A stretch of DNA of 38,593 nucleotides, taken from positions 1-38,593 of the forward strand of contig JARKVN010000016.1 of assembly GCA_029851645.1 (NCBI GenBank). Direction: 5' to 3'. The position numbers were made by a program, and so were the translations under genes. The notes below the pieces were generated by a model, which was not told the DNA's origin, searched no databases, and worked only from the letters and a program-made list of their open reading frames with translations. The DNA is from Cellulosilyticum sp. (GTDB taxonomy: Bacteria > Bacillota > Clostridia > Lachnospirales > Cellulosilyticaceae). Shown here piece after piece: positions 823 to 9,696 of the stretch; position 1 is the stretch's first letter, and every line of letters starts with the position of its first letter.

Positions 823-1953
823 ATGAGTAGGTTCCATGTAGAACTAAAAAAGGTAGTAGATGATTCTTATGATATTGAAGTGGGTAAAAATTTGTTTGAT
901 ACCTTACTTAATGATTTAAAAGGAAAACTAGGAGAGGGCATTAGCCGTTATGCAATTATAACAGATTCCAATGTGAAAACATTGTATGGTGACCAACTTT
1001 TAGAAAGCATGTTACTAGAAGGCTTTCAGGTGGATTTAATCAGTTTTCCAGCAGGAGAAACTTCTAAGGTAAGAGCCACAAAGGAAATGATAGAAGATGA
1101 AATGCTAGCAAGAGGGCATCGCAGAGATAGTTGTATTATTGCTTTAGGTGGAGGCGTTGTTACAGATTTAGCAGGATTTGTAGCAGGCACATTTGGAAGA
1201 GGGATTCCTTTTATCAACTACTCCACAAGTATGCTAGGTGCTGCTGATGCTTCTGTAGGTGGGAAAACAGCAGTAGATACACCCCTGGCAACTAATTTAA
1301 TTGGACTCATTTATCAACCTAGGAAAGTTTATATTGATTTAGCAACATGGGAAACTTTACCTAAGGAGCAAATTAGTAATGGACTTGCCGAAACCATTAA
1401 GCATGCCTGCATAGCAGACTATACTTTCTTTGCTTTTCTAGAAGAAAATATAGATAAATTATTAGAGGAAGATGGTATTAGCAAACAATATGAGATTTGT
1501 CAGCATCTAGCAGAAACGAATTGCAAAATTAAATATGAAGTGGTCAAACAGGATGAGAAGGAATTTAACCTTAGACAGGTACTTAATTTAGGTCACACTA
1601 TAGGACGTGCTATTGAAACGCTGAGTCATTATACTTTACTTCATGGGCAAGCGGTAGCTATAGGAATGGCATTACAAGTTAAAATAGGACAAAAATTAGG
1701 CTATATCACAAAAGAAGAGGCTCATAGGGTCATTGCACTCTTTGAAAAAGCAGGACTTTGTACCAAGCTACCAGAGGACATGGCAACAGAAGAGGTTGTA
1801 CAAAAGCTTTATACGGATAAGAAAGTACGACAAGGAAAGATTCGCTTCGTATTTCAAGAGGGAATTGGCCAGATTAAATGCCATGAAGATGGGAATTACT
1901 CTATTGCCTTGGAGGAAGATTTCATTAGAAGGACGATAAATGAGGTGCGTTAA
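823..1953 (+). CDS. aroB: 3-dehydroquinate synthase family protein
   Basis: 'GGGVVTDLAGFVAGTFGRGIPFINYSTSMLGAADASVGGKTAVD', 'GLAETIKHA', 'LNLGHTIGRAIE', 'LHGQAVAIGM' match the DHQ synthase fold and metal-ligand motifs. Confidence 0.88.
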   Translation: MSRFHVELKKVVDDSYDIEVGKNLFDTLLNDLKGKLGEGISRYAIITDSNVKTLYGDQLLESMLLEGFQVDLISFPAGETSKVRATKEMIEDEMLARGHRRDSCIIALGGGVVTDLAGFVAGTFGRGIPFINYSTSMLGAADASVGGKTAVDTPLATNLIGLIYQPRKVYIDLATWETLPKEQISNGLAETIKHACIADYTFFAFLEENIDKLLEEDGISKQYEICQHLAETNCKIKYEVVKQDEKEFNLRQVLNLGHTIGRAIETLSHYTLLHGQAVAIGMALQVKIGQKLGYITKEEAHRVIALFEKAGLCTKLPEDMATEEVVQKLYTDKKVRQGKIRFVFQEGIGQIKCHEDGNYSIALEEDFIRRTINEVR

Positions 1954-2002
1954 CAGAGAGTAGATAACTTTTAGATAAAATAATAGATAGGAGAAATGAA
2001 AA

Positions 2003-2425
2003 ATGAATTTTGATAACGATTGTTTTTACTGTGTAAAAGATTCAAGACTTACAGACCTTATGATTAAAGTATGTGATTTAGAAGCATCTACATTGTATAT
2101 GTTCAAAGAGCAAACTTATAAAGGACGTTTACTTGTAGCCTATAAAGAGCATGCAAGTGAAATCTGTGATTTAACAGATGAAGAAAGAAATACTTTTATG
2201 AAAGATGTAGCTAGAGCAGCTCAAGCTATGCATAAAGCGTTTAGTCCAGCTAAAGTAAACTATGGTGCTTATGGCGATACCATGAAACACTTACATTATC
2301 ATTTAGTACCTAAATACGAAAATGGACCAGATTTTGGTGGTGTATTCCAAATGAATCCAAGAGCAGTTTATTTAACAGATGCTGAATATAACGAAATGAT
2401 TGAAAAGGTTAAAGCACATTTATAA
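2003..2425 (+). CDS. HIT family protein
   Basis: Histidine triad 'KHLHYHLVP'; preceded by RBS gataggag. Confidence 0.9.
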   Translation: MNFDNDCFYCVKDSRLTDLMIKVCDLEASTLYMFKEQTYKGRLLVAYKEHASEICDLTDEERNTFMKDVARAAQAMHKAFSPAKVNYGAYGDTMKHLHYHLVPKYENGPDFGGVFQMNPRAVYLTDAEYNEMIEKVKAHL

Positions 2426-2443
2426 AAACTAAATAGAGGTAAG

Positions 2444-2478
2444 AAAGCCATGATATACTAATAATGTCATGGCTTTTT
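2444..2478 (+). terminator. Rho-independent terminator after HIT gene
   Basis: AAAGCCATGA (2444-2453) / TCATGGCTTT (2467-2476), perfect 10-bp stem, T-rich tail. Confidence 0.75.
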
Positions 2479-2501
2479 AATTGAAGGAGTGAAACAACAA
2501 T

Positions 2502-3077
2502 ATGAACTATAAAGAAGCGATCGAAAGATATAAGCCAATCAACGAGCAAGAGGCAAGTGAGAAGAAAGTTATATTAGATTATATTAATCAATATCCTCAT
2601 AACATTTTACTTCGAGATAATGAATTTGGGCATTTAACAAGTTCTGGATTTATTATGAATAAGGATTTAACAAAGACGTTAATGATTCACCATAATATTT
2701 ATAATACATGGGCATGGACAGGTGGACATGCAGATGGAGATGAAGATTTACTTTATGTAGCCATAAAGGAAGCAAAAGAGGAAACAGGTGTTACAAAGAT
2801 AGAGCCTCTTACAAATGAAATTGCTTCAATAGATATCCTTCCTGTATGGGGACATGTTAAAAAAGGGAAATATGTAGCAACTCACATGCACCTATCTGTA
2901 GCCTATATCCTTATAGCAGATGAAGCGCAAGAACTATACATAAATGAAGCAGAAAATAGTGGTGTGAAGTGGATTAAGATAGAAGAAATGAAGCAGTATT
3001 GTAAAGAAGAAAAGATGCTTCCTGTCTACTATAAACTGATTGAGAGAGCGAAAAGTTATAGAGAAAATCTAAAATAA
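2502..3077 (+). CDS. NUDIX hydrolase
   Basis: Nudix box 'GHADGDEDLLYVAIKEAKEETGV'. Confidence 0.9.
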   Translation: MNYKEAIERYKPINEQEASEKKVILDYINQYPHNILLRDNEFGHLTSSGFIMNKDLTKTLMIHHNIYNTWAWTGGHADGDEDLLYVAIKEAKEETGVTKIEPLTNEIASIDILPVWGHVKKGKYVATHMHLSVAYILIADEAQELYINEAENSGVKWIKIEEMKQYCKEEKMLPVYYKLIERAKSYRENLK

Positions 3078-3111
3078 GTATCAAATGATTTAAGTCTAAA
3101 GCTAAAAAGGG

Positions 3112-3140
3112 TTGCAATTTAAGCCTAAGTATAATATATT
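3112..3140 (+). promoter_or_regulatory. Putative sigma-A promoter of the mutS2-like leader
   Basis: TTGCAA (3112-3117), 17-nt spacer, TATATT (3135-3140). Confidence 0.55.
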
Positions 3141-3175
3141 ATGAATAACACTATATTATTAAAAAGGAGGAGTTT

Positions 3176-3211
3176 ATGTTAAGTGTAGTGAAAGAGGTTA
3201 TTGGATACTAA
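3176..3211 (+). CDS. Putative 11-aa leader peptide MLSVVKEVIGY
   Basis: ATG...TAA, with strong Shine-Dalgarno AAAAAGGAGG (3161-3170) 5 nt upstream; followed directly by alternative hairpins. Confidence 0.55.
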   Translation: MLSVVKEVIGY

Positions 3212-3346
3212 TTTAATAGTATGATTTTAGAAAAAGTTTCTAAAGCGCGATAGGTAGTAGAACTTTTTCTAAGATGTTGCTTTTGCCTTTCATTGCTTAA
3301 CAAAACACTCTTTTAAGATATAGAAATCGGAATTTGGAATGGTAAG

Positions 3347-3399
3347 AGGCTACATAAGCTCTATCTAGGTTAGACTGGATAGAGCTAGGTGGCCTTTTA
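3347..3399 (+). terminator. Leader terminator 1
   Basis: AGGCTAC..AGCTCTATC (3347-3365) pairs with GATAGAGCTAGGTGGCCT (3378-3395), followed by TTTTAT. Confidence 0.6.
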
Positions 3400-3504
3400 T
3401 CATAGCTTGCTTATTTCTGAAGTAATATTTCTTTAAAGCTTTACAGAGCATCTGATTTATTTTGTGGATGTTTATAGACGTTATCTTAAATTAGAAAATA
3501 AGAG

Positions 3505-3559
3505 TGACCTACAAGGTAGCTATGCCAATAAAGGCAAAAGCAACTGTAGGTCATTTTTT
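3505..3559 (+). terminator. Leader terminator 2, just upstream of the MutS2-like start
   Basis: TGACCTACA (3505-3513) / TGTAGGTCA (3545-3553), perfect 9 bp, followed by TTTTTT. Confidence 0.65.
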
Positions 3560-3601
3560 ATGCTGTAAATTACAAAAAAGATAAAGGAGAATAGAAAAAT
3601 A

Positions 3602-5554
3602 ATGATTTTAGCAAAGGAAATATTAGAATTTGGAAAAGTATTAGAAATGCTTAGCGAATGCGCAGTCTCAGAACGTGCAAAGAAAGAGTTACAAGGATTA
3701 GAGATGATTTTAAATCAAAGTCAGCTTGAGATAAAAATGAGAGAAACAACAGAAGCTAGAAAATTACTAGATAGTTTGGGAATGCCACCATTAAGTAGTA
3801 TGAAAGGGCTAGAGCGTATGACTAAAGAAGTAGAAATAGGAACGATGCTAGAGCCTGAGACTTTAATCGAAATAGCCTCTTTTATTAAGGCAACTAGGCA
3901 GATGAAGCGTTACTTGGGAAGAGGAGAATATTTAGAATGTGAACTCGCTTTATATGGAAGAGGGTTTTATAATTTGGAAGCCTTAGAGGAAGAAATTGAA
4001 AGAAGTATTCGTAATGGGGGAGTAGATAGTGAAGCTTCACCAACGCTCAGAAGTTTAAGACGTAGTATTGAGCTGAAAAAAGAGATGATGAAAAGCAAGT
4101 TAGAGAAAATCATTCAAACCAAAAAGAATTATTTAGCAGATTCTTATATTCTGAATCGAAATGGACATTATGTGATTGCGGTTAAGAAAGAATACAAGCA
4201 TCAGGTAGAGGGGCAGTGTTTTGATACTTCACGTAGTGGTAATACTGTGTTTATTGAGCCAGCGATTCTAGGTAAATTGCAAGAAGAGTTAAATATGCTG
4301 GAAATAGAGGAAAGCAATGAGGTAAGAAGAATTCTCTATACTTTAACCAATGAGGTTGAAGCTTACTTAGCAGAAATAAAAGGGAATATGGAAATGATGC
4401 TTGCTTTAGATATAGCTTTTGCTAAAGGGAAATTATCAGCTAATATGAAAGGAAGAGCAGTGGAACTTGTAACAGATAGGCAGATTATGATTAAACAGGG
4501 AAGACATCCCTTACTACCTGCTGCTTCATGTGTTCCTCTAGATTTTGAAATAGGGGGAGAAACCAAAGGGATTATTATTACAGGGCCTAATACAGGAGGT
4601 AAAACAGTCGCACTTAAGACAATAGGGCTGCTTTCTATGATGGTTCAGTGCAGTTTACATGTACCAGTTGGTGAAGGAAGTAAGTTTGCTATGCATAATG
4701 AAATCCTGTGCGATATAGGAGACGGACAAAGCATAGAGGAAAATTTATCTACCTTTTCTGCACATATTAAATCCATAACAGCTATTTTAGAGAGGGTAAC
4801 AAATGAAAGTCTAGTATTGTTAGATGAGTTGGGGTCAGGGACAGACCCTAAAGAAGGGATGGGAATTGCGATCGCTATTTTAGAAGCTTTAAGGAAAAAT
4901 GCTGGACTATTTGTCGCAACAACCCATTATCCAGAAGTTAAAGATTATGCTTTAAAAACACCAAAACTTCAAAATGCCTGTATGCAATTTGATAAGGAAA
5001 CTTTAAGACCACTTTATACACTTAGAGTAGGCGAGTCAGGAGAAAGTTGTGCATTATATATTGCTGAGAAATTGGGATTTCCTAAACAACTTATCTCTAT
5101 TGCTAAGAATTGTATTGGTAGTGATTTAGGAGTTAAAGATACCAAGGAGTATGCTACTTTAGAAAAGGAGAAAGTAACCCATGAGCCTGTTAGTAAAGGC
5201 CCTAAAATAGAAAAGCGTAAAGAAAAAGTAAAGGCTAAACAGATTAAAAAATTTAATAGAGGAGATAGTGTGTTAGTCTTTCCTAATAAAGAAAAAGGCA
5301 TTGTATTTGAAGCAGCCAATGAAGAGGGCATGGTAGGTGTTCAAGTTCAAGGAAGAAAAAGGTGGGTCAATGCCAAAAGGCTAAAACTATTAGTTGCTTC
5401 TAGTGAACTTTATCCAGAGGACTATGATTTCTCAATTATTTTCGATAGCGTTGCCAATCGTAAAGCAAAGAAGAAAATGAGTAAAGGGTATAGACCAGAA
5501 GTAATGGCTGTTTATGATAGTCAAGAAGAGGCAAAGTGGGGGAAAACTGAATAA
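3602..5554 (+). CDS. MutS2-like ATPase lacking the C-terminal Smr domain (650 aa)
   Basis: 'GIIITGPNTGGKTVALKTIGLLSMM' Walker A, 'LVLLDELGSGTDPKEG' Walker B, 'ATTHYPEVK', and a KOW-like 'FNRGDSVLVFPNKEKGIV...' tail. No Smr signature in the remaining C-terminus. Confidence 0.9.
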   Translation: MILAKEILEFGKVLEMLSECAVSERAKKELQGLEMILNQSQLEIKMRETTEARKLLDSLGMPPLSSMKGLERMTKEVEIGTMLEPETLIEIASFIKATRQMKRYLGRGEYLECELALYGRGFYNLEALEEEIERSIRNGGVDSEASPTLRSLRRSIELKKEMMKSKLEKIIQTKKNYLADSYILNRNGHYVIAVKKEYKHQVEGQCFDTSRSGNTVFIEPAILGKLQEELNMLEIEESNEVRRILYTLTNEVEAYLAEIKGNMEMMLALDIAFAKGKLSANMKGRAVELVTDRQIMIKQGRHPLLPAASCVPLDFEIGGETKGIIITGPNTGGKTVALKTIGLLSMMVQCSLHVPVGEGSKFAMHNEILCDIGDGQSIEENLSTFSAHIKSITAILERVTNESLVLLDELGSGTDPKEGMGIAIAILEALRKNAGLFVATTHYPEVKDYALKTPKLQNACMQFDKETLRPLYTLRVGESGESCALYIAEKLGFPKQLISIAKNCIGSDLGVKDTKEYATLEKEKVTHEPVSKGPKIEKRKEKVKAKQIKKFNRGDSVLVFPNKEKGIVFEAANEEGMVGVQVQGRKRWVNAKRLKLLVASSELYPEDYDFSIIFDSVANRKAKKKMSKGYRPEVMAVYDSQEEAKWGKTE

Positions 5555-5585: not shown

Positions 5586-5630
5586 TTGACAAGGAAAGGG
5601 AACGTGATATAATAGATAGCGTGCTATCTA
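5586..5630 (+). promoter_or_regulatory. Promoter and perfect palindromic operator of the MarR-ABC operon
   Basis: TTGACA (5586-5591), 16 nt, TATAAT (5608-5613); palindrome TAGATAGC-GT-GCTATCTA (5613-5630). Confidence 0.8.
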
Positions 5631-5647
5631 AATAAGGAGTGAGAAAA

Positions 5648-6091
5648 ATGAACTATAATATCGAGAAAAAGGATATTGGTTTGCTTCTAAAATGTATTAA
5701 TAACAAGATTATATGTAGCTTAAATAAAGAACTAGAAGTTTTTGATATTACATTAATGCAAGCAGAAGTGCTAGGTTATATGTATACTCATCACAAGGAT
5801 CAAGATATTTTTCAGAAGCAAATAGAGGAGTTTTTTAACTCTAGCAATCCCACAATTACAGGTATATTAAAGCGTTTAGAAGCCAAAGATCTCATTGAGC
5901 GTAAGGCGAGTGCTACAGATGGTAGATATAAGAAACTCACCTTAACAGATAAGGGGGTTAAGCTTATTAACCAACTTGCTGAATTGGGTCCAAAGAGGTT
6001 GGAAGTAAAGATAACCAAGAAACTTTCAAGTAAGGAAAAAGATGAACTTGAAAGATTATTAGCCCTTGTATTAGAAGGTTTGGAAGAATAA
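5648..6091 (+). CDS. MarR family transcriptional regulator
   Basis: Winged-helix pattern 'NPTITGILKRLEAKDLIERKASATDGRYKKLTLTDKG'. RBS aaggag favours ATG 5648 over the ORF-track GTG 5639. Confidence 0.9.
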   Translation: MNYNIEKKDIGLLLKCINNKIICSLNKELEVFDITLMQAEVLGYMYTHHKDQDIFQKQIEEFFNSSNPTITGILKRLEAKDLIERKASATDGRYKKLTLTDKGVKLINQLAELGPKRLEVKITKKLSSKEKDELERLLALVLEGLEE

Positions 6092-6122
6092 AATATGAAA
6101 TACTAAAAAAGGAGAGGATAAA

Positions 6123-7856
6123 GTGATAAAGAAGCTAATACCTTACATAAAAAAATATAAAGTAGCGACGTTCTTATCAATTACCTTTGCTGTACTTGAA
6201 GCATTGTTCGAGCTACTTATTCCTTTAGTTATGGCACAAATTGTAGATGTAGGGATTGTTAATGGAGATGCAGCTTATACCATTAAAATGGGGATTCTTA
6301 TGATTGTTATCGCACTTATCTCATTAAGTTGTGGCTTAGGGCTTGCTAAATATGCAGCAGTAGCTGGTCAAGGATTAGGGGCAGAACTGAGAAGTGCACA
6401 ATACAAGAAAATTCAAACATACTCATTTAAAAATATTGAGAAGTTTAGTACAGCATCACTCATTACACGTTTAACAACAGATGTAACAGCTATACAAAAT
6501 TCAGCAACGCTAGGCATTAAATTATTAGTTAGGGCGCCTATTATGCTTATTTTTGCAGCTATTTTAGCAGCCATGATTAATGCAAAACTTGCACTTGTTT
6601 TCGTAATCTCAGCACCTATACTTGTTATTTGTATTGGTATCTTGATTTTCAAGGTAAAACCAAGATTTGAGCGTATGCAACAACAAGTAGACAAGCTCAA
6701 TACTGTTTTACAAGAAAATTTAGTTGGTATTCGCGTTGTTAAAGCTTTTGTAAGAGATAAGAAGGAAAAAGAAAAATTTAAAAGTGGCAATGATGGCTTA
6801 CAAGAAGCTTCTGAAAAAGCATTTGGTTTAGTTGTATTAGGTATGCCAATCATGCAAATGGCTATGTTTTCAAGTTTAATTGCTATTTTCTGGTTTGGTG
6901 GTAATATGATTTATACCGGCGAACTTGAAGTTGGTAAAATGACAAGTTTCATCGCCTACTCTATGCAAATTTTAATGTCACTTATGATGCTTGCAATGGT
7001 ACTTATGATGATTTCACGTTCTATAGCATCTCTAGCTCGTATTATTGAAGTACTTGAAGAAGAACCAGATATTGTAGACCCAGCTAGGCCCGTACTTGAA
7101 GTGAAAAACGGTGATATTGAATTTAGAAATGTTAACTTTAAATATGAAGAAGATAGCCCTGAAAATAATTTAGACCAGATTAATCTTAAGATTAAATCAG
7201 GGGAAACCATTGGTATTATTGGTGGAACAGGTTCTGCTAAGACATCACTAGTGCGGCTTATTCCAAGACTCTATGATGCAAGTTCAGGTGAAGTACTAGT
7301 AGGTGGGGTTAATGTAAAGGATTATGAACTTGAAACCTTACGTAACTCTGTAGCTATGGTGCTTCAAAAGAATACGCTTTTCTCAGGAAGTATTAGAGAA
7401 AATCTTAAATGGGGAAATGAGAACGCAACTCAGGAACAAATCGAGGCAGCATGTCAGGCATCTTGTGCAGATGAATTTATCAGCCGCTTACCAGGAGAGT
7501 ATGAAATGGATCTTGGGCAAGGTGGGGTGAATGTATCTGGAGGACAAAAGCAAAGACTATGTATTGCAAGAGCCTTATTAAAAACACCTAAAGTACTTAT
7601 TTTAGATGATAGTACCAGTGCAGTAGATACAGCAACAGATGCTAAGATTAGAGCAGGCTTTGCTGATAATTTAAAGGATACAACTAAGATTATTATTGCA
7701 CAAAGGGTTAATTCCGTTTGTGAAGCAGATAAAATTATTGTTATGGATGATGGTAAGATTTCAGCTGTAGGGACTCATGATGAACTGATGGCAACTAGCG
7801 AAATCTACCGAGATGTTTATATTTCACAACAGGAAGGAGTTGGTTTAAGTGAGTAA
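6123..7856 (+). CDS. ABC exporter half-transporter, degenerate-site subunit (TMD-NBD)
   Basis: Walker A 'GGTGSAKTS', signature 'VSGGQKQR', noncanonical Walker B end 'ILDDSTSAVD', Q in place of H-switch ('IIAQRVNSV'). GTG start with ggagagg RBS. Confidence 0.93.
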   Translation: MIKKLIPYIKKYKVATFLSITFAVLEALFELLIPLVMAQIVDVGIVNGDAAYTIKMGILMIVIALISLSCGLGLAKYAAVAGQGLGAELRSAQYKKIQTYSFKNIEKFSTASLITRLTTDVTAIQNSATLGIKLLVRAPIMLIFAAILAAMINAKLALVFVISAPILVICIGILIFKVKPRFERMQQQVDKLNTVLQENLVGIRVVKAFVRDKKEKEKFKSGNDGLQEASEKAFGLVVLGMPIMQMAMFSSLIAIFWFGGNMIYTGELEVGKMTSFIAYSMQILMSLMMLAMVLMMISRSIASLARIIEVLEEEPDIVDPARPVLEVKNGDIEFRNVNFKYEEDSPENNLDQINLKIKSGETIGIIGGTGSAKTSLVRLIPRLYDASSGEVLVGGVNVKDYELETLRNSVAMVLQKNTLFSGSIRENLKWGNENATQEQIEAACQASCADEFISRLPGEYEMDLGQGGVNVSGGQKQRLCIARALLKTPKVLILDDSTSAVDTATDAKIRAGFADNLKDTTKIIIAQRVNSVCEADKIIVMDDGKISAVGTHDELMATSEIYRDVYISQQEGVGLSE

Positions 7857-9696
7857 AGGATCAAAAGGGATGCCAAAACCAAAAAATATGAAGCAAACTT
7901 TAGGAAGACTGATGCGCTACTTAGGTAAATACAAACTTGCACTAGTAGCAGTAAGCTTTTTAATCATAATCAACTCTATTTCTATGGTAGCAGGAGTATT
8001 TTTCCTAAAGCCAATTATTAATAATTATATTTTACCAGGTGACTTTGTTGGATTAGCTAAAATGCTTGTAGTATTAGCAGTTATATTTATAATAGGGGCT
8101 CTAAGTTCTTTTGCTTATGCTAGAATTATGGTTCATATTGGTCAAAAATCCGTACAACAAATCCGTACAGATCTTTTTAACAAGATGCAAACCCTTTCTA
8201 TTAAATACTTTGATGGACATACACATGGGGATTTAATGAGTCTTTATACAAATGATATTGAGAGTATCAGCGAAGCCCTTAATAATAGTGTGGCTAATGT
8301 GATTTCTTCAATATTCCTTTTTGTAGGTGTTGTGATTATGATGCTTACATTAAGTCCCATCTTAGCGCTTCTTACTTTTGCTATGCTTGGGATATTACTT
8401 TTCTGTATGAAAAAAATCGGACAGAAAAGTGGCTATTACTTTGGAATGCAACAAGCTAAAATTGCAAATTTAAATGGTTATGTTGAAGAGATGATTGAAG
8501 GACAAAAGGTTGTTAAAGTTTTCTGTCATGAAGATAAAGCCATTGAAGCCTTCGATAAACTTAATGAAGAATTAAGAGAGGCTTCAACTGGAGCTCAAAC
8601 ATTTGCTGGTGCTATGATGCCACTAATGGGGAACTTATCTCATATTAACTATGCGGTTAACTGTTGTGTAGGTGGTCTTTTAGCCATTTCTGGGATATTA
8701 GATGTAGGGGCACTGATTGCTTTTCTTCAATATGTACGTCAAATATCACAACCTGTAACACAAGTATCGCAACAAATGAACGTTGTTATTGCAGCTTTAG
8801 CTGGTGCTGAACGTATTTTTAATGTTTTAGATGAAGAACCTGAGATAGATAATGGAAGTGTTACTTTAGCTAAAGTAAATGTTAAAGCAGATGGCCAGTT
8901 AGAAGAAACAGATCATTATACAGGGCACTGGGCATGGAATAATAATGGGAAGTTAGTAGAACTTCGAGGTGATGTAAGATTTGAGAATGTAGTCTTTGGC
9001 TATAATGAAGAGAAAACTATCTTAAAAGGCATTTCATTATTTGCTAAACCAGGACAGAAGATTGCCTTTGTTGGTTCAACAGGTGCTGGTAAAACAACAA
9101 TTACTAACTTGATTAACCGTTTCTATGAAATTAACTCAGGAAATATCACTTATGACGGAATTAAGATTACAGATATAAAGAAGGATGAACTTAGAAAATC
9201 CATTGGTATTGTTCTTCAGGATACACATCTTTTCACAGGAACAATTGCAGATAATATTCGTTATGGAAATCTTCATGCAACAGATGAAGAGGTTATCGCA
9301 GCAGCAAAACTGGCGAATGCACATTCATTTATTAAGCATCTAGCACATGGTTATGACACTGTTCTTACAGGTGATGGAGAAGGTTTATCTCAAGGACAAA
9401 GACAACTTCTTGCAATTGCTAGAGCAGCTGTAGCCAACCCACCAGTACTTATTATGGATGAGGCGACAAGTTCGATTGACACAAGAACAGAGAAGCTGAT
9501 TGCAGAAGGTATGGATAAATTGATGGAAGGTAGAACTGTATTTGTTATTGCTCACCGTTTGTCAACTGTACGTAATTCAGATGCCATTATGGTATTAGAA
9601 CAAGGTGAAATTATTGAACGTGGTACTCACGAAGAGTTACTGGATCAGAAAGGCCGATATTATCAACTTTATACAGGTAAGGCTGAACTTGACTAG
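7849..9696 (+). CDS. ABC exporter half-transporter, canonical catalytic subunit (TMD-NBD)
   Basis: Walker A 'GSTGAGKTT', noncanonical signature 'LSQGQRQ', Walker B 'LIMDEATSSID', H-switch 'VIAHRLSTV'. Overlaps the upstream gene by 8 nt. Confidence 0.93.
   Translation: MSKGSKGMPKPKNMKQTLGRLMRYLGKYKLALVAVSFLIIINSISMVAGVFFLKPIINNYILPGDFVGLAKMLVVLAVIFIIGALSSFAYARIMVHIGQKSVQQIRTDLFNKMQTLSIKYFDGHTHGDLMSLYTNDIESISEALNNSVANVISSIFLFVGVVIMMLTLSPILALLTFAMLGILLFCMKKIGQKSGYYFGMQQAKIANLNGYVEEMIEGQKVVKVFCHEDKAIEAFDKLNEELREASTGAQTFAGAMMPLMGNLSHINYAVNCCVGGLLAISGILDVGALIAFLQYVRQISQPVTQVSQQMNVVIAALAGAERIFNVLDEEPEIDNGSVTLAKVNVKADGQLEETDHYTGHWAWNNNGKLVELRGDVRFENVVFGYNEEKTILKGISLFAKPGQKIAFVGSTGAGKTTITNLINRFYEINSGNITYDGIKITDIKKDELRKSIGIVLQDTHLFTGTIADNIRYGNLHATDEEVIAAAKLANAHSFIKHLAHGYDTVLTGDGEGLSQGQRQLLAIARAAVANPPVLIMDEATSSIDTRTEKLIAEGMDKLMEGRTVFVIAHRLSTVRNSDAIMVLEQGEIIERGTHEELLDQKGRYYQLYTGKAELD

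Follow-up and report, generated by a model that had tools for sequence, protein, structure and literature searches.

A uORF-containing leader, probably a ribosome-mediated transcription attenuator, in front of Smr-less MutS2 paralogs of Clostridia

The window discussed here is the whole stretch of 38,593 nucleotides of Cellulosilyticum sp. DNA that was analysed. In it, a NUDIX gene ends at 3077 and a gene for a paralog of MutS2 starts with the ATG at 3602. Between them lie a promoter, a short upstream open reading frame (uORF), and two intrinsic terminators. The features of this region are given below with the basis of each in brackets.

3112..3140, + strand: sigma-A type promoter TTGCAA-N17-TATATT (-35 TTGCAA at 3112-3117, 17-nt spacer, -10 TATATT at 3135-3140)
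3164..3172, + strand: Shine-Dalgarno (SD) of the uORF, AAGGAGGAG (8-nt contiguous match to the anti-SD complement)
3172..3197, + strand: uORF start and segment A, the anti-antiterminator side, with segment B as partner (minimum-energy fold; covarying pairs in congeners)
3176..3211, + strand: 11-codon uORF MLSVVKEVIGY* (read from the sequence; 11 codons also in most clade I leaders, from other families)
3205..3222, + strand: stop-codon hairpin of the uORF, ATACTA..TAGTAT (sequence)
3229..3270, + strand: internal hairpin between A and B (predicted minimum-energy fold)
3277..3295, + strand: antiterminator half of segment B, TTGCTTTTGCCTTTCATTG (complement within T2)
3286..3306, + strand: anti-antiterminator half of segment B, CCTTTCATTGCTTAACAAAAC (pairs with 3172-3197 in the minimum-energy fold)
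3347..3401, + strand: intrinsic terminator T1 (hairpin 3347-3395, -30.0 kcal/mol, then a T-rich run)
3502..3562, + strand: intrinsic terminator T2 (hairpin 3502-3556, -24.9 kcal/mol, then a T-rich run)
3525..3543, + strand: segment A' within T2, complementary to B, CCAATAAAGGCAAAAGCAA (duplex search; compensatory C-G to U-A change relative to congeners)
3583..3594, + strand: SD region of the main gene (sequence)
3602..5554, + strand: Smr-less MutS2 paralog, 650 aa (TIGR01069 match, domain searches, tree, structure model)

The product of the downstream gene scores 577.6 bits against TIGR01069 (mutS2, cut-off 400) and contains the MutS2 core and the ATPase. The Smr domain (PF01713) is absent from it, whereas the canonical MutS2 of the same genome, encoded on another contig, carries one. 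In a maximum-likelihood tree, the Smr-less proteins of Clostridia group together, separate from canonical MutS2 (support 100/99), and divide into three subclades (I, II, and III). These proteins have kept the ATPase motifs, and a conserved C-terminal tail (LYPxxYD...RK) replaces Smr. Residues 556-598 form a five-stranded KOW/SH3-like barrel in the AlphaFold2 model of the window protein (mean pLDDT 81), at the position of the MutS2 KOW domain, and the solved structures closest to this model are those of MutS2 (PDB 7qv3, 8qpp, and 9kce). At the sequence level, the match to the KOW region of 8qpp is weak, PF20297 finds no match in the window protein, and the uS10-binding loop of Bacillus subtilis MutS2 is kept only in part in the alignment. 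Ribosome binding by the paralog is plausible from these comparisons, and by analogy with canonical MutS2 it most likely acts on stalled ribosomes. One paralog elsewhere (L080) has two in-frame TGA codons and is probably a decayed copy. Directly downstream of the window's paralog, the region 5586-9696 begins with a consensus promoter (TTGACA-N16-TATAAT at 5586), followed by a gene for a MarR-family regulator (5639-6091) and a pair of MsbA/SmdAB-type ABC exporter genes (6123-7856 and 7849-9696).

An earlier note on this DNA had described the promoter and an 11-codon ORF with a near-perfect SD, and both were borne out in coordinates and sequence (3112-3140 and 3164-3211); most of the congeners (L005-L007) have a TTGCAA / TAATATATT arrangement at the equivalent position. 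The two intrinsic terminators it had placed ahead of the ATG are likewise present, as hairpins of -30.0 and -24.9 kcal/mol with a T-run behind them. A simple promoter/terminator consensus scan missed both T1 and T2 because its stem and loop limits exclude them. The window leader folds better than all of 100 shuffles (z -9.4), and Rfam covariance models, at gathering as well as relaxed thresholds, gave nothing at or near the gathering score over it. Other leaders likewise have a stop-codon hairpin at this position, built from sequences of their own (TTAAGC/GCTTAA, AGTAAC/GTTACT, CAAC/GTTG).

Smr-less paralogs, identified in the match table by the length of their open frame, are found in 49 of 246 genomes sampled from the order and in further families of the class. 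By reading upstream regions we assigned an SD-preceded uORF to 67 leaders, which represent 20 clostridial families; the uORFs, like the B and A' segments discussed below, were assigned partly by eye after alignment reading, and the pairing statistics are not fully blind. At least one small ORF with an SD of 5 or more occurs in 81% of the leaders; since such ORFs are frequent by chance, conservation of uORF length and sequence was used as the criterion. Most clade I uORFs are 11 codons long (MSVLSVKVINN, MSANMVSVIKT, MLSVVEEVLNY), those of clades II and III mostly 7 (MIEVVLN, MAKVFFN, MSVVVSK), and two leaders have a uORF of only 3 (MSV). At least one intrinsic terminator stands between uORF and gene in 66 of the 67, compared with 11 of 30 upstream regions of equal length from canonical mutS2 genes and 20-24 of 67 shuffled leaders; at least two are present in 27 of 67 leaders versus 1 of the 30 canonical regions. 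The earlier note had staked its reading on such conservation upstream of orthologs, and the comparison found it.

One might still ascribe the layout to coincidence, the terminators being those of the NUDIX gene and the small ORF a product of chance. That gene does end upstream, at 3077, but the layout is kept in 20 families irrespective of the upstream gene, and both the terminator controls and the covariation described below contradict chance; we give this explanation virtually no weight. Judged by these comparisons, the combination of uORF and terminators in front of Smr-less paralogs is not a chance arrangement. One subclade is leaderless (L011-L013, L017, L019, L021, and L023-L025), and four of its paralogs (L021, L023, L024, and L025) lie directly behind rpsU, the gene for ribosomal protein bS21, an adjacency that supports a ribosomal role. 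Among the leaders, that of L049 retains the uORF region, with a frame of only M-L-A or a shifted reading (possibly an indel), and those of L074 and L077, from one family, have a small ORF of about 35 codons instead of a short uORF.

Within the window leader, two predicted pairings compete for the same segment. The minimum-energy fold pairs 3172-3197 with 3286-3306, and B at 3277-3295 is a near-perfect complement of 3525-3543 in T2 (-25.5 kcal/mol, z -5.4), a B:A' duplex that none of 200 shuffles equalled. The antiterminator and anti-antiterminator halves of B overlap by 10 nt (3286-3295), and because these ten bases are common to both, A:B and B:A' are mutually exclusive. The earlier note had sought the switch elsewhere, in hairpins at 3226-3244 and 3227-3272; the latter does exist, as 3229-3270 in the minimum-energy fold, but the conserved alternatives are uORF:B (3172-3197/3286-3306) and B:T2 (3277-3295/3525-3543). 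In all six members of the genus of the window, B finds its best complement within the last terminator (mean z -3.9), and at one position B changes jointly with A and A': GTGGAAG (uORF), CTTCTGC (B), and GGCAGAAG (T2) of the relatives correspond to GTGAAAG, CTTTTGC, and GGCAAAAG of the window. The pairing of the uORF start reads GTTAAGC:GCTTAAC in L005 and GTTAAGT:ACTTAAC in L006 and L007.

Outside the genus, the uORF end and B of clade II covary at 9 of 12 columns (GTTCTTAACTAA:TTAGTTAAGAAC vs CTTGGCTTAA:TTAAGTCAAG) in an arm table made by hand, MAFFT of the short concatenated arms having misregistered this clade. For clade I, compensatory changes affect 3 of 7 columns of A:B, and its helices have 94.5% paired cells, as against 32-44% when the helix is slid. 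Its B:A' pairing in the terminators (CAGACTGCTTC with GGAGCATTCTG) has changes on both sides in 3 of 11 columns. Beyond the window genus this pairing is weaker (mean z -0.8 in 15 leaders), and a scan recognised no B motif in several clade I leaders (L053-L065), whose internal sequences differ. An unrestricted search for the best duplex between the uORF and the whole downstream leader did mildly better than shuffles (mean z -0.7); such a search is weak because long AT-rich regions yield chance duplexes, and aligned covariation was used in its place.

Clade III leaders have the partner of B past the terminator, between it and the gene start (about -78 to -25), and in this clade control may be exerted partly at translation. 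This position would fit an explanation in which regulation is mainly translational, with pairing that hides or frees the SD of the main gene and with terminators of secondary importance, as would the last 60 bases before the gene in L103 and L109, where hairpins that would cover the paralog's SD suggest an added translational control. Intrinsic terminators are, however, present in 66 of 67 leaders, and T2 contains the partner of B in the window as well as in its congeners; as a general account, we consider translational control unlikely. A further complementarity links the transcript 5' end of the clade III leaders L014-L028 (TAGGTAGATATA in L016) to the sequence that immediately precedes the gene (TATATCTGCCTA); the complementarity and its apparent covariation across the clade were judged by eye only.

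A large structured RNA that recurs across families, with conserved stop-codon and internal hairpins, could also be a riboswitch or a protein-bound leader whose fold senses a ligand, the uORF being incidental or serving translational coupling. Yet it is the internal hairpins that vary in length and sequence, whereas conservation is found in the SD, in the length of the uORF, and in the A segment anchored to its start, and no Rfam family matches; ligand sensing by the RNA itself appears quite improbable to us.

The leader is not confined to mutS2 paralogs. A covariance search in other Clostridia, proposed in the earlier note, was run with a model of the clade I leaders (R2) against 392 genomes from the class and 296 from the order, and most of its matches precede Smr-less mutS2 genes. 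R2 reached further than the corresponding clade III model (R1), which matched its own family only. It recovered the leader of L009, a member of the window genus left out of model building (E 0.0013), and, with filters off, scored the window leader weakly (E 0.18) but in the correct position. Three matches precede a gene for a DrrA-like ABC ATPase (L137, E 1.4e-17; L140, 1.3e-12; L146, 0.004), and another (L143, E 2.8e-8, 1501-3138) lies ahead of a CD3324-family gene that is followed by an RsgA-like GTPase. Each of these four leaders has an 11-codon uORF, and none was used to build R2. The same DrrA-like ABC ATPase also lies directly downstream of the MutS2 paralog, in operon-like fashion, in L009, L088, L100, and L101, four loci that span clades I and II. 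These links to ABC ATPase and GTPase genes, which were not looked for beforehand, point to a response to translation stress or drugs. Of the remaining matches, L145 and L147 were discarded as weak and looking like chance, and L144 has uORF and motif with no gene behind them. In L106, a different ABC ATPase is encoded downstream of the paralog (best match E 4e-20).

The position of segment A relative to the uORF start codon is constant. It begins at uORF nucleotide 12-15 in all 40 leaders in which it is definable, a regularity to be read as an observation and not as a blind test, the segments having been chosen with knowledge of the alignments. The uORFs of these leaders measure 12, 21, 24, 27, 30, or 36 nt including the stop codon, and in the 3-codon ones the pairing segment crosses the stop codon. 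A ribosome in initiation would have the beginning of A within its footprint or at its leading edge; for the vmlR uORF, the toeprint of the initiating ribosome lies 16 nt downstream of the start (PMC9226507). Such fixed geometry suggests that what the leader senses is a ribosome arrested while initiating or early in elongation, and not any one codon.

It also bears on classical amino acid attenuation, in which stalling at uORF codons would sense a shortage of charged tRNA for valine or other branched-chain amino acids. The uORFs of clades I and III are indeed rich in valine (MLSVVKEVIGY, MSVVVSK), but clade II uORFs lack this bias (MAKVFFN, MLAVYLA), those of two members consist of M-S-V alone, the spacing of A is fixed relative to the start codon with no such tie to a particular codon, and the genes behind the leader encode ribosome or exporter factors. 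An attenuator of amino acid biosynthesis was rejected on the clade-dependent composition of the uORFs and the non-biosynthetic genes, and we regard codon-specific sensing as very improbable.

We consider it likely that the leader is a ribosome-mediated transcription attenuator of the vmlR/hflXr kind, placed in front of a new class of genes. Of the elements that make up such an attenuator, the leaders contain an SD-preceded uORF early in the leader, an intrinsic terminator before the gene, and, by prediction and with compensatory changes, an anti-antiterminator that includes the uORF. An antiterminator that competes with the terminator is predicted for the window genus and part of clade I, and clade III differs. 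Without stress, a ribosome would initiate on the uORF, complete it, and depart. The uORF start region and codons 5-9 would then be free to pair with B (as anti-antiterminator), and with B occupied, the terminators would halt transcription ahead of the gene. A ribosome parked on the first uORF codons, be it by an inhibitor of early elongation or by another early stall, would cover A, so that B could pair with its complement in the last terminator, the terminator could not form, and the paralog would be transcribed. If the paralog acts on stalled ribosomes, the circuit would be self-limiting.

Sequence comparison demonstrates the conserved uORF and terminators, the covarying exclusive pairings, the fixed geometry, and the sharing of the leader with exporter-type genes. 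From these we infer in what order events occur, what induces the switch, and what the protein does, and with them the release of transcription upon stalling and the link to drugs. The attenuation layout put forward in the earlier note is thereby well supported for an Smr-less MutS2 paralog; its assignment to the erm/ABC-F type does not extend to the downstream gene, which encodes neither an ABC-F protein nor an rRNA methyltransferase. Taken together, the findings suggest an inducible defence, hitherto undescribed, that is directed at translation-blocking drugs or stress. We see an even chance that the Smr-less MutS2 proteins of Clostridia are a family of their own, made up of stress-inducible factors for ribosome rescue or resistance (a counterpart of HflXr) and that one start-anchored switch, common to them, the DrrA-like exporters, and the RsgA-like GTPase, defines a small regulon against early-elongation inhibitors. 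A widespread, unnamed branch of MutS2 would hereby obtain a testable function, namely that of a ribosome factor produced in response to stalled translation, and the leader class, found before ribosome factors and exporter-type genes, may serve as a tool to find candidate inducible resistance genes in Clostridia.

The mechanism is of a kind already known, and it is the leader family, its target gene, and its sharing across gene types that appear new. The earlier note knew of no such leader for a mutS2 paralog, and our literature search likewise found no description that joins MutS2 with a uORF or a leader of this type. Two systems described by experiment, HflXr and VmlR, operate in this manner. 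The first is HflXr (lmo0762) of Listeria monocytogenes, a paralog of a ribosome-splitting GTPase behind the leader rli80 with its 14-codon uORF, for which induction by lincomycin and erythromycin has been demonstrated (PMC6310831). As predicted for our leader, a uORF, an anti-antiterminator, an antiterminator, and a terminator stand before a paralog of a ribosome-splitting factor (PMC6310831). HflX is, however, a GTPase unrelated to MutS2, the 14-codon rli80 uORF has an RLR motif, and inducers have been demonstrated for rli80, whereas the MutS2-paralog leader is known here from sequence.

VmlR of B. subtilis is preceded by a 3-codon uORF, an anti-antiterminator, and a terminator (PMC9226507). 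Its short uORF within the anti-antiterminator, its terminator ahead of a gene for a ribosome-acting ATPase, and its sensing of ribosomes on the first codons (PMC9226507) would all recur in our leader, although vmlR is an ABC-F gene with the uORF MIN and one terminator, and its RNA sequence is unrelated as far as seen. In Clostridioides difficile, control of CplR combines the levels of transcription and translation (PMC10201436). Its leader is also clostridial and uORF-controlled, with a terminator that overlaps the gene start (PMC10201436), but it is a compact leader of 212 nt with the uORF MRI, in front of an ABC-F gene. As for the protein, canonical MutS2 (RqcU) of B. subtilis splits collided ribosomes, and the authors of that work note that contacts through KOW may be enough for partial activity when Smr is missing (PMC10897456). 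The paralog resembles it in core and ATPase fold and in the position of its predicted KOW/SH3-like barrel, and differs from it by the missing Smr domain, a shorter linker, a divergent KOW loop, and a new conserved C-terminal tail.
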